DNA of 42,932 bases. It comes from Caulobacterales bacterium. GTDB taxonomy: Bacteria > Pseudomonadota > Alphaproteobacteria > Caulobacterales > Caulobacteraceae. Every line of letters begins with the position of its first letter. Positions within the stretch are counted from its first letter, which is position 1. The notes under the pieces are model-generated. The model searched no databases and was not told the DNA's origin. It was given only the letters and a program-made list of their open reading frames with translations. Shown here piece by piece: positions 36,934 through 40,819 of this stretch. Both the position numbers and the translations under genes were made by a program. The stretch lies in the NCBI GenBank assembly GCA_016234625.1, contig JACRBD010000028.1, forward strand, positions 1 through 42,932, in the 5' to 3' direction.

Positions 36934-37761
36934 TCAGGACTTCTTCGAGAAGTAGGTCTCCGCTTCGCCGGGGAAGCGGCGGGCGCGGACGTCATCGGCG
37001 TAGGCGCCCGCCGCGCGGGCGATTTCGCCCTTCAGATCGGCGTAGCGGCGGACGAACTTCGGGGTCCAGTCGAACAGGCCCAGCATGTCGTCGGTGACCA
37101 GGATCTGGCCATCGCAGCCGGCGCTGGCGCCGATGCCGATGGTCGGCGGGGCGATGGCGGCGGTGATCTCGCGGGCCAGCGGCTCGGCCACCCCCTCGAC
37201 CACCACGGCGAAGGCCCCGGCGTCGGCGGTGGCCCGAGCCTCGGCGAGGATCCGGGTGCGCTCGTCGTCGGTGCGGCCCTTGGCCTTGAAGCCGCCATCG
37301 ACCAGCACCGCCTGGGGCCGCAGGCCCACATGGCCCATCACCGGGATGCCCCGTTTGACCATGTAGTCGATGGTCTCGGGCACCGTCGGGCCGCTCTCCA
37401 CCTTCACCGCCTGGCAGCCGGTTTCCTTCATGATCCGGACAGCGTTTGAATAGGCCTCTTCCTTGCCGCCTTCGTAGGAGCCGAACGGCATGTCGACCAC
37501 CACCATGGCCCGGCGCGAGGTGCGCATGACCGCCTGGCCGTGCAGGATCATCATCTCCAGGGTGACGCCGACGGTGTTGGGCAGGCCGTGCACCACCATG
37601 CCGACCGAGTCGCCCACCAGGAGCAGGTCGCAGACCTCGTCGAGGACGGCGGCCACCGGGGCGGTGTAGGCGGTCAGGCAGACGATCGGCTCGCCGCCCT
37701 TGCGGCCGGCGATGTCCGGCGCGGCGAGGCGGCGGATGGTCTCTTCACGATGGGCGGACAG
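36934..37761 (-). CDS. panB: 3-methyl-2-oxobutanoate hydroxymethyltransferase, probable CTG start
   Basis: [55 protein letters not shown]; in-frame sequence upstream of the tracked GTG encodes the conserved N-terminus. Confidence 0.9.
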
Positions 37762-37776
37762 GACGTCCTCCTGCGG

Positions 37777-38160
37777 CTACTGGAATTCTTCCACCGCCCG
37801 CGTGACGGCGAAGGCCAGCGCCATAACACCCAGAGCCGCCGCCAGCCACATCGCCTCGCCGCCAAACGGCAGGGCCGAGAGGTTTTCACCGGTCCGCATC
37901 ACGCTGGTGACGCTTTGGGTGAAGGCGCTGGCGTTGCGTTGGGTCGCCTCGCCGGCGTCGAACAACAGGCGCGAGCCCAGCACCTGGCTGACTCCCGCCA
38001 GACCCGCGACCAGGCCGGCCGCGCCGATGGCCACCTGACGCAGGGTCCAGCCGCGGTCGAGACGCATCTCCACCAGCCGGGCGAAGGCTTCCGCGTCCGG
38101 CATCGTCGGCGGCTCGTTGAACATCCGGTCGAGCTTCATCTCGAAATCGAGCTCAGCCAT
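37777..38160 (-). CDS. 2-TM protein, probable non-canonical anti-sigma factor
   Basis: Overlaps the 3' end of an ECF sigma gene; short N-terminal helix plus TM helices; no zinc anti-sigma motif. Confidence 0.65.
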   Translation of the reverse strand: MAELDFEMKLDRMFNEPPTMPDAEAFARLVEMRLDRGWTLRQVAIGAAGLVAGLAGVSQVLGSRLLFDAGEATQRNASAFTQSVTSVMRTGENLSALPFGGEAMWLAAALGVMALAFAVTRAVEEFQ

Positions 38161-38731
38161 GACCCTCCCTCCCCGCGGACTCAAGCGTTGCGCCTTCAGG
38201 CGGCGCAAGTCGGAGTCTGAGCTTATCCAGACCACGTTTGACATGGGATTTTACCGTTCCCAGAGGCGTATTTAAGGCCTCCGCTGCTTCGGCGTGCGAG
38301 ACGCCCGCTCCATAACAGAGCGACACGCACATCCGTTCCGCGGGCGAGAGCGTCTTGAGGGCCTCGTCCAGATCGATGCGGGCGGCGGCTGAAATCTCGC
38401 CGCCATGGCTCTCGTCGGCCGTCTCCGCGTCCAGGTCGTAGCGCGACTCCTTGCGCCAGCGGCGCACATAGAGCCTCGCGGCGATCTTGCGGACCCAGGC
38501 CGAGAAGGTGCCCTCGCCGCGGAATTCCGCGATGCGCTCGAAGGCGGCGAGGAAGGCGTCCTGGGCGATGTCGTCGGCCGTGGACGGCTCGGCGCCCATG
38601 CGCCGCAGCAGTCCCCGGACCGCCGAGCCATGTCGGCGAACGAGTTCGCCAAAGGCCGGCCGGTCGCCCGCCGCCGCGAGGGCGGCGAGCTCGACATCGT
38701 GCAGACTGGCGGGTGACTTTACCCCGGCCAT
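38153..38731 (-). CDS. RNA polymerase ECF sigma factor
   Basis: Region 2 DDIAQDAFLAAFERIAEF, region 4 SHAEAAEALNTPLGTVKSHVKRGLDKLR. Confidence 0.92.
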   Translation of the reverse strand: MAGVKSPASLHDVELAALAAAGDRPAFGELVRRHGSAVRGLLRRMGAEPSTADDIAQDAFLAAFERIAEFRGEGTFSAWVRKIAARLYVRRWRKESRYDLDAETADESHGGEISAAARIDLDEALKTLSPAERMCVSLCYGAGVSHAEAAEALNTPLGTVKSHVKRGLDKLRLRLAPPEGATLESAGREGHG

Positions 38732-38761
38732 GGCGGCGCCCCTCCGTTCAATCCGAACCGA

Positions 38762-39163
38762 TCAAGGCTGCTTGAACTTGTTCGGGTTGACGAAGCTGAG
38801 GGCGATGTAGGCCAGGCCGATGATGGCCGGGATCGAGCCAATGCCCACCAGTGGCTGGAAGGCGTCCGAATCCTCGAAGCCGACCATGTACCCGAAGGCG
38901 GCGATGCCCAAGCCGACCGCCAGCCAGATGACGCCGGCGCGCAGGTCGCTCTGGGACGTGGGAGCGACCTTCACATTCTTGGTCATCGCATCGATGATTT
39001 CGGCCGGGAGCGGCTGGCCCTTGTCGATAGCCGTGCGCAGCGTGGCCTGCATCTCGCGCCGTTCGCGGCTCTTGAGCCAAGAGGGCACGATCACGATGGC
39101 GCCGATCATGATGAAGAAGGTGATCGGAATCAGAATGGTGAAATCGAAAAACGGATGGTCCAT
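38762..39163 (-). CDS. DUF6249-like small membrane protein
   Basis: TM, then SRERREMQATLRTAIDKGQPLPAEIIDAM, then two TM helices. Confidence 0.75.
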   Translation of the reverse strand: MDHPFFDFTILIPITFFIMIGAIVIVPSWLKSRERREMQATLRTAIDKGQPLPAEIIDAMTKNVKVAPTSQSDLRAGVIWLAVGLGIAAFGYMVGFEDSDAFQPLVGIGSIPAIIGLAYIALSFVNPNKFKQP

Positions 39164-39278
39164 TGGATGTCCTCAATGCCTGTCTGGCGACACCTGATCG
39201 AGCCGCCTTCTGACTGATAAGAGGCCCGGCGGTGCGCCAACGGATGCGGCCGGCCAGATGAAATCTTCGTAACGCGGA

Positions 39279-39578
39279 TCAGAGCCGGAGTCGGAGCCAC
39301 GCCGGGTTCTGGCTGATCAGAACGACCGCCGCCGTCAGGGTCAGCATCCCGACGACCGGCGAGAGCATCAGCGCCATCGGTTCGATCACCGCATTGAGGA
39401 TCGGCGCGCAGGCCCACAGGCCGACCGCCGCCGCGGTGGCCAGCACCGCGCTGGCCGCCAGCTGGGCCTTCAGCTCGCGCCGGGCCACCTGACGCATGAC
39501 CTCGGCGGCGAACACCGGATCCTGTTCGGGTCCCCGGCCCTCCTGGAGGAAGGCTTCGAGCCGTTGTTCGGCCGTCAT
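39279..39578 (-). CDS. 2-TM protein, probable anti-sigma partner of the downstream-overlapping ECF cassette
   Basis: ATGA overlap with the sigma gene; QDPVFAAEVMRQVARREL then two TM helices. Confidence 0.65.
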   Translation of the reverse strand: MTAEQRLEAFLQEGRGPEQDPVFAAEVMRQVARRELKAQLAASAVLATAAAVGLWACAPILNAVIEPMALMLSPVVGMLTLTAAVVLISQNPAWLRLRL

Positions 39579-40087
39579 GGCTTGTCTCCCAACACGCTGA
39601 GCAGCTTATCCCGTCCGCGCGCCACATGCGACTTGATCGTGCCGAGCGGCAGGCCCAGGGCATCGGCGGCCTCGCCATGCGACCAGCCGTCGGCCAGGCA
39701 CAGGGTGACCGCGGCCCGCTGGTCCGGCGCCAGGGTCGCCATGGCCGCTTCCAGGGCCATGCGGTCCTCGGCGGCCAGGCCGGCCCCCTTCCCGTCCCGC
39801 TCCTGCGTCCAGTCATGGTCGCGGCGGGCGGAGCGAGCGGCCGAGCGGTTGAGGGTCAGGGCCCTGCGCCAGGCGATGCCGTAGAGCCAGGGCCGAAACC
39901 CCTCGTCGTCCCGCAGCCGGTTCAGATTCGCCCAGGCGGTCACGAAGGCCTCCTGGGCGACGTCGTCCGCCTCCGCCCCCGCGGCGCGGCGCAGGAACCG
40001 TCGCAGGCCCTGCTGATGCCGCTCCACAAGCCGCCCGAAGGCGGCCTGGGACCCCGCTCTGGCCGCCCGGACAAGCGGCGCTTCCAT
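39575..40087 (-). CDS. RNA polymerase ECF sigma factor
   Basis: Region 2 ADDVAQEAFVTAWANLNRL, region 4 SHGEAADALGLPLGTIKSHVARGRDKL; start MEAPLVRAARAG at 40087. Confidence 0.92.
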   Translation of the reverse strand: MEAPLVRAARAGSQAAFGRLVERHQQGLRRFLRRAAGAEADDVAQEAFVTAWANLNRLRDDEGFRPWLYGIAWRRALTLNRSAARSARRDHDWTQERDGKGAGLAAEDRMALEAAMATLAPDQRAAVTLCLADGWSHGEAADALGLPLGTIKSHVARGRDKLLSVLGDKP

Positions 40088-40089
40088 CG

Positions 40090-40521
40090 TCAGTCCTTCG
40101 GCGTCCGCATCATCAGGGTCGCGACCAACGAGGACAGGCAAAGAGCCCCCATCACGAAGGTCACGATCACGAAAGCCGGCCCCGCTTCGTAGAGATCGGT
40201 CTGGGCCGCATAGCCGAAGCCGAGGGCCAGCGATCCGAACAGGACCACGTTGGGCCAGCCGCCAAAGCCCCGTCGGCCGTAGTAGCGGCGACCGCGGCGG
40301 CCACGCGGCTCATCCCAGTCGTCATCGAGCGACGGCTTGTTGAGGCTCTCCATCAGGCTCGGCGGGATCTCCTTGCCGCTGGCGACATAGGTCTTGATCA
40401 GGTCGAGATTGTCGCGATGGCGACGCAGGTTGATCAGGCTGTGCCAGGCTCCGGCGATGAACCAGAACAGCGGGAACATCAGCCACCAGTAGGAGCGGAA
40501 CAGGTCTTCGAAGGTGTTCAT
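40090..40521 (-). CDS. small membrane protein, paralog of 40526-40723 N-terminus
   Basis: MNTFEDLFRSYWWLMFPLFWFIAGAWHSLINLRRHRDNLDLIKTYVASGKEIPPSLMESL. Confidence 0.75.
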   Translation of the reverse strand: MNTFEDLFRSYWWLMFPLFWFIAGAWHSLINLRRHRDNLDLIKTYVASGKEIPPSLMESLNKPSLDDDWDEPRGRRGRRYYGRRGFGGWPNVVLFGSLALGFGYAAQTDLYEAGPAFVIVTFVMGALCLSSLVATLMMRTPKD

Positions 40522-40525
40522 GGTC

Positions 40526-40723
40526 TCAGTCTCCGGTCCGGGCGCGTCGGCCGAGCTTGTCCAGCAGGCCGGCGGGCACGTCGCGGCCACTCTTCGCATA
40601 GCCCTTGATGATGTCGAGGGTGTCGCGCCGAGCGCGTTCGCTCAGCCAGGCGTTCCAGCCGCCGATGACGAACCAGGCCAGCGGAAACAGCAGCCACCAG
40701 AACGAGCGGAACAGGTCTTCCAT
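40526..40723 (-). CDS. 65-aa single-TM protein
   Basis: MEDLFRSFWWLLFPLAWFVIGGWNAWLSERARRDTLDIIKGYAKSGRDVPAGLLDKL; similar to the adjacent ORF. Confidence 0.72.
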   Translation of the reverse strand: MEDLFRSFWWLLFPLAWFVIGGWNAWLSERARRDTLDIIKGYAKSGRDVPAGLLDKLGRRARTGD

Positions 40724-40819
40724 CGCATTTCGCCTCCCGGCCCCGGCACGATCATCGCGCCGTTCTGTGAGGTAGTCGCCGCCGACCCGCCGGGTGGATG
40801 CAGCGTCGGCGAACTTATT

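Follow-up and report, generated by a model that had tools for sequence, protein, structure and literature searches.

The stretch of DNA analyzed here (the window, 42,932 nt in all) is one contig, C304, of a Caulobacterales genome of 3.8 Mb in 365 contigs. The nearest named relative in our collection scan is a Caulobacter MAG (locus L170), whose ECF2 sigma is 92% identical. On the minus strand of the window lie two paralogous cassettes, each made up of DUF6249-type membrane protein(s), an ECF sigma factor, and a partner with 2 transmembrane (TM) segments (Table 1). Cassette A comprises p65 and p143, ECF1, and par1; after a gap of 115 nt from par1, cassette B runs through the DUF6249 gene, ECF2, and par2 to panB. 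The gene order and coordinates of the initial annotation were correct, and its notion of a duplicated regulatory module holds as well: ECF1 and ECF2 are 43% identical, and the cassettes correspond gene for gene, since iterated profiles merge p65 and p143 with the DUF6249 protein.

Table 1. Genes and promoter features of the tandem cassettes (positions in the window)
Feature	Position	Strand	Basis and remarks
Promoter A, GCATCC-N17-CGACTA	40773..40801	-	49 nt before p65
p65, short DUF6249-like membrane protein, gene 1 of cassette A	40526..40723	-	65 aa; 47% to N-terminus of p143; iterated profile
p143, DUF6249-like membrane protein, cassette A	40090..40521	-	143 aa; iterated profile
ECF1 sigma, cassette A	39575..40087	-	170 aa; Sigma70_r2 and r4_2 over cut-off; A group, SH-aLRT 98
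par1, partner with 2 TM segments in cassette A, probable anti-sigma	39279..39578	-	99 aa; D..F...V motif; 4-nt overlap
Upstream element TTACGAAGATTTCAT, putative UP element or activator site	39258..39272	-	10 nt before promoter B -35; alignment
Promoter B, GCATCC-N17-CCTCTT	39219..39247	-	55 nt before DUF6249 gene
DUF6249 3-TM membrane protein, cassette B	38762..39163	-	133 aa; PF19762, E 8.5e-15; AlphaFold2
ECF2 sigma, cassette B	38153..38731	-	192 aa; Sigma70_r2 and r4 over cut-off; 43% to ECF1
par2, partner with 2 TM segments in cassette B, probable anti-sigma	37777..38160	-	127 aa; invariant D22, F26, W38, R41; 8-nt overlap
panB, ketopantoate hydroxymethyltransferase	36934..37761	-	Pantoate_transf, E 1e-98

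Both sigma factors carry sigma70 regions 2 and 4 above the Pfam cut-offs with nothing in between, the layout by which ECF (group IV) sigmas, with their short linker, are recognized, and the best match of ECF1 elsewhere in the genome is ECF2. Region 4.2 is nearly identical between the two and region 2 differs, a pattern consistent with a -35 element in common and a -10 element that has changed. SigV of C. vibrioides was considered as a candidate and set aside, as it adjoins an EF-hand gene and belongs to a different system. A search of the open-access literature for Caulobacter ECF sigmas with panB returned no relevant paper.

The membrane protein that opens cassette B matches Pfam DUF6249 with 55 bits against a cut-off of 33, and the corresponding match of p143 is weak (E 0.079, 13.4 bits) and lies below that cut-off, which p65 does not reach either. 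p65 and p143 are paralogues (E 3e-24 for p65 against the p143 N-terminus), and iterated profiles gather one common set of about 100 proteins, whether started from p65, p143, or the DUF6249 protein. Family profiles are needed to see this relationship; direct BLASTP of p143 against the DUF6249 protein gives no useful alignment. The initial annotation had spoken of upstream "sensor or target" proteins, and membrane proteins they are, but not unrelated ones: a single DUF6249-like family stands in both cassettes. The AlphaFold2 model of the DUF6249 protein (pLDDT 87.8) has 3 long helices, with a short helix near a conserved GQPLPPE motif, and its hydropathy is consistent with 3 TM segments. A fold search with this model against solved structures gave nothing significant, and no functional paper on DUF6249 was found in the open-access literature.

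The partner gene begins inside the sigma gene in both cassettes, as the initial annotation had recognized, by an ATGA overlap for par1 and with a median of -8 nt among relatives. Each partner consists of an acidic N-terminal cytosolic tail (35 aa in par1, 42 aa in par2) followed by 2 TM segments. The tail motif is approximately L..LF....PPARD..F...VM..VARR for par1 and F...L.RLF...P.F.DA..FA..V..RLDRGW..R for par2, the 4 residues listed for par2 in Table 1 being invariant. The proposal that the 2 partners are related survives in part: BLASTP of par1 against par2 produces no useful alignment, whereas comparison of the family profiles with hhalign relates them over 30 columns of the N-terminal tail only (E 7e-5, probability 63%). 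The Pfam family DUF5056 (PF16479), for which no paper was found in the open-access literature, has weak matches in 8 of 32 par1 homologues (best E 6.7e-4), and par1 of the window falls under its curated cut-off (E 0.021).

The length of the tails, the lack of any histidine or zinc motif in either (HxxxCxxC was already reported missing by the initial annotation), and the lack of a match to any anti-sigma Pfam family place the partners outside the class I anti-sigma domains. Anti-sigma domains shorter than 50 aa count as possible members of class II (PMC7406223), and the tails fit this class because of their length and helix count. The AlphaFold2 model of par2, of modest confidence (pLDDT 75.7, pTM 0.35), has helices at residues 3-15, 23-95, and 102-126, that is, a short helix and then a helix that runs from residue 23 into the first TM segment. 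The likeness does not extend to sequence: profiles of both partner families, compared with all PDB chains, retrieved no anti-sigma, neither CnrY nor NepR, and no other relative, and a fold search with the par2 model against solved structures gave nothing significant. The best reading is that the partners are candidate class-II-like anti-sigmas, in line with the atypical membrane anti-sigma family that the initial annotation had suggested. In one genome (G033; locus L097, 5444-6397), ECF2 and par2 are joined in a single reading frame of 317 aa. The sigma part of this fusion is without the usual region 4 motif and looks degenerate, and the product is possibly a membrane-tethered sigma decoy; as a natural fusion it lends indirect support to the predicted binding of sigma and partner.

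The distribution of the module is that of an order-wide trait. DUF6249 is present in 139 of 149 genomes of the family, mostly as a single copy, and in 102 of 120 genomes of a sample from the order; the counts drop to 6/114 for the class and 4/100 for the phylum, samples that include the family itself. The DUF6249-ECF-partner trio was found at 59 of 61 family loci and at all 80 of the named Caulobacteraceae loci that were found from ECF2 alone. Outside the family a strict profile detects the trio at 19 of 35 loci. The initial annotation had made synteny beyond close relatives the test of its proposal, and the gene order is indeed kept beyond close relatives, across the order; since it is kept across a whole order, it exceeds chance.

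A different assignment of roles has to be weighed here. Sigma inhibition or sensing would in truth fall to the DUF6249 protein, either by itself or jointly with the 2-TM protein, and the latter would serve as anchor, chaperone, or output protein. The DUF6249 gene precedes the sigma gene in nearly all loci examined, its product has a conserved cytosolic helix and a G49/P53/E55 motif, and at a further 9 of the 35 loci outside the family the sigma and DUF6249 remain and the partner falls below the detection threshold. At most of those 9 loci, however, the sigma is still followed by a small protein that bears D..F, and it is the partner, not DUF6249, that overlaps the sigma gene and has once been fused to it, the position in which an anti-sigma is usually found. 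We consider this assignment unlikely, and prefer the partner as the inhibitor.

The gene panB, which starts 15 nt after par2, follows the trio within 400 nt at 51 of the 61 family loci and at 63 of the 80 named loci, and also follows it in 2 other families, f143 and f144. In the window (37755-37775, minus strand) a CTG stands at the place expected for the conserved start, after a good ribosome site, AGGAGG; among relatives the codon at that place is ATG, TTG, CTG, or GTG, and panB may thus use a weak start codon. Judged from the gene arrangement, panB is probably read through from cassette B. The association is frequent enough to suggest that the module is mainly a dedicated panB switch, for pantothenate and CoA supply, with the membrane proteins as its sensor side. 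Against this, a sizeable minority of trio loci have no panB behind them, cassette A is not followed by panB, and panB may have a promoter of its own. We therefore regard such a dedicated switch as improbable, and continue with the view of each cassette as a regulatory module in its own right.

The promoters bear directly on that view. Among 245 upstream regions of DUF6249-family genes, counted against shuffled sequences and the opposite strand, the hexamer GCATCC is dominant (169 regions versus about 25 in shuffles). The extended pattern GCATCC-N17-[CG][GCT][AT]CT occurs in 115 regions, whereas shuffles give 0.35 and the opposite strand gives 0. The cassette-specific forms stand out as well: exact promoter A in 44 regions and GCATCC-N17-NCTCTT in 52, each against 0 in shuffles, and TTACGAA in 65 against 1.35. 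The resulting consensus for cassette A is GCATCC-N17-CGACTA, and that for cassette B is GC(A/C)TCC-N17-CCTCTT, preceded by a TTACGAAnnTTTCAT element. In B-type promoters outside the family, the -10 is mostly GCATCT. Canonical ECF promoters have a -35 with AAC and a -10 with CGT (PMC8103513), and neither promoter A nor promoter B is of this type. Each operon is probably autoregulated from its conserved, cassette-specific promoter, with the cognate sigma as the putative reader.

Genome-wide searches for sites were made with 2 sequence models, R1 and R2, and with exact patterns. The genome of the window contains 2 exact A matches, the second of them within a long reading frame, and a single exact B match; with 1 mismatch allowed, the pattern searches of this genome yielded hits at the level of the control. 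Full matches thus occur essentially only at these operons, and each sigma most likely drives its own. Among 41 genomes of the genus, the exact A pattern is found about once per genome in most, with few occurrences for the reversed control. With R1 and R2, most genomes show a single strong site, and the best B match is at cassette B in all 12 genomes for which cassette B coordinates were at hand, but since both models were built from cassette upstream regions, matches at the cassettes are expected and this result is partly circular. The independent tests of the promoters come from genomes without cassette A and from a TonB_C-like gene. In the genomes whose loci were retrieved, a strong hit of the promoter A model is present in 6/6 with cassette A and in 0/4 without it; promoter A is retained in a fifth A-less genome, G138. 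As for the second test, which concerns the second tier of B hits, a B-type promoter precedes a small secreted TonB_C-like gene (PF13103) in 5 genomes (G022, G457, G047, G454, and G473; E 2.5e-10 to 4.5e-4), and these same 5 are the only ones of the 41 with a close homologue of the gene, so that 5/5 have the B site. Some Caulobacter species are accordingly predicted to include this secreted gene in the B regulon.

Several observations from the same searches are recorded here for completeness. At L387, L395, L396, L398, and L399, in 5 Caulobacter genomes, genes for small secreted TonB_C-like proteins have the B-type promoter together with the upstream element. In G450 and G461, a B-type site precedes a secreted alpha/beta hydrolase gene. 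In the comparison of 41 genomes, that of the window has no close TonB_C-like homologue. A B-like element, TGACGAAGATTTAAT...TGCATCC with a poor -10, is present in 3 genomes including that of the window (L391, 2739-2784; L388, 2743-2794; L390, 2744-2795), where it sits between TonB_C-like and small secreted genes, oriented against both.

Autoregulation is not the only way to account for such promoters. A different sigma might read them, the general stress sigma SigT for instance, in which case the cassettes would be targets and their own sigmas would act elsewhere. Hierarchies of this sort have been reported among Caulobacter ECF sigmas, with sigV under SigT (PMC13171946). The promoter motif, however, differs from the AAC/CGTT type of canonical EcfG (PMC8103513), the -10 boxes are specific to each cassette, and the A motif vanishes with cassette A, all of which makes control by a foreign sigma very unlikely.

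The history of the tandem arrangement could be traced in part. Tandem trios are seen at 24 of 61 family loci and 33 of 80 named loci, and families f143 and f144 have them as well. A tree built on 122 sigmas of these loci and 3 outgroup sigmas, made by a quick method with SH-aLRT support and no bootstrap, collects 29 of 30 first-position sigmas, together with the second-position sigma of one inverted locus, in a single A group (SH-aLRT 98). The A group spans 3 families, and the duplication is hence at least as old as those families; to judge from the sequences compared, cassette A has since been lost repeatedly. In G138 (L058, 4815-4960), promoter A and the last ~20 codons of par1 stand before cassette B as a deletion scar, and at L404 (G445) a decayed promoter A site lies before cassette B where cassette A was lost. 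The inverted locus (L078, 2783-5426, in G030) has cassette B, then A, then panB, which shows at least one rearrangement of the tandem. L066 (5549-7848, G009) carries 2 copies of par1, separated by about 1.7 kb, in the interval from ECF1 to cassette B. That these are simply small conserved membrane genes beside sigma duplicates in decay, without any active part in regulation, would suit the absence of cassette A from many relatives and the degenerate fused sigma of L097, but is hardly credible given how strongly the sigma motifs, the promoters, and the N-terminal partner motif are conserved across the order.

The account that we consider likely is that each cassette forms a self-contained ECF module under positive autoregulation, with the 2-TM partner as its anti-sigma. 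The 2-helix tail of the partner, with its D..F...V motif, would hold the sigma at the inner membrane, as CnrY does, until it is freed by some signal of the envelope or membrane, which the DUF6249 protein of the same operon perhaps senses or tunes. The freed sigma would then start transcription of its own operon at the promoter that precedes it, assuming cognate recognition; the B operon would run on into panB, and in some Caulobacter species the secreted TonB_C-like gene is predicted to join the B regulon. The 2 cassettes stem from an old tandem duplication after which the -35 stayed common and the -10 diverged, so that partial cross-talk between them may be possible. A more far-reaching version can be offered only tentatively, and we think it rather doubtful as a whole: an order-wide system in which DUF6249 proteins would be inner-membrane sensors or co-inhibitors of a new class and the partners a new 2-TM family of class-II-like anti-sigmas, in which tandem paralogues would share the -35 and be insulated by the -10 only, and in which nearly closed self-activating loops would couple the state of the membrane or envelope to pantothenate (CoA) synthesis.

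Among known systems, the nearest in form are the class II pairs CnrH-CnrY and EcfG-NepR. CnrY is a small membrane protein whose gene adjoins that of its sigma. Its helix 1 lies on sigma4 and its helix 2 on sigma2 (PMC7406223). The present modules would share with both pairs a 2-helix sigma-binding domain of less than 50 aa, but the partners here have 2 TM segments instead of one and show no detectable sequence relation to any solved anti-sigma, and a DUF6249 protein takes the place of CnrX or PhyR. SigF-NrsF of Caulobacter crescentus comes from the same host group and resembles the modules in being a small ECF operon with a small regulon and a membrane inhibitor (putative here) without a classical anti-sigma domain; NrsF, however, is a 6-TM DUF1109 protein with metal-sensing cysteines, and its system has no DUF6249, no tandem paralogue, and no panB (PMC3511200). 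With class I zinc systems such as SigE-ChrR or RpoE-RseA the common ground is a sigma and an inhibitor (putative here) encoded together behind a promoter for their own operon, but the partners lack both HxxxCxxC and the multi-helix domain of about 100 aa. The likeness of par1 homologues to the small DUF5056 proteins is weak.

The tandem ECF module is thus not an artifact but a coherent and conserved variant of the ECF sigma/membrane anti-sigma theme. That theme is already well known, which makes the interest moderate; the variant is marked by a partner family out of the ordinary, by the constant presence of DUF6249, by unusual promoters, and by the old tandem duplication. The initial annotation had singled the locus out as its best candidate for an undescribed multi-gene system, and within the open-access literature searched no paper describing it was found and it apparently is undescribed. 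The analysis places DUF6249 and a family of small, nameless 2-TM proteins in a context, offers for both a role that can be tested, and links an ECF sigma to the vitamin B5 gene panB. It also provides exact promoter sequences for 2 paralogous sigmas of a model bacterial order, with which autoregulation, cross-talk after duplication, and the size of the regulons can now be tested with simple reporters.
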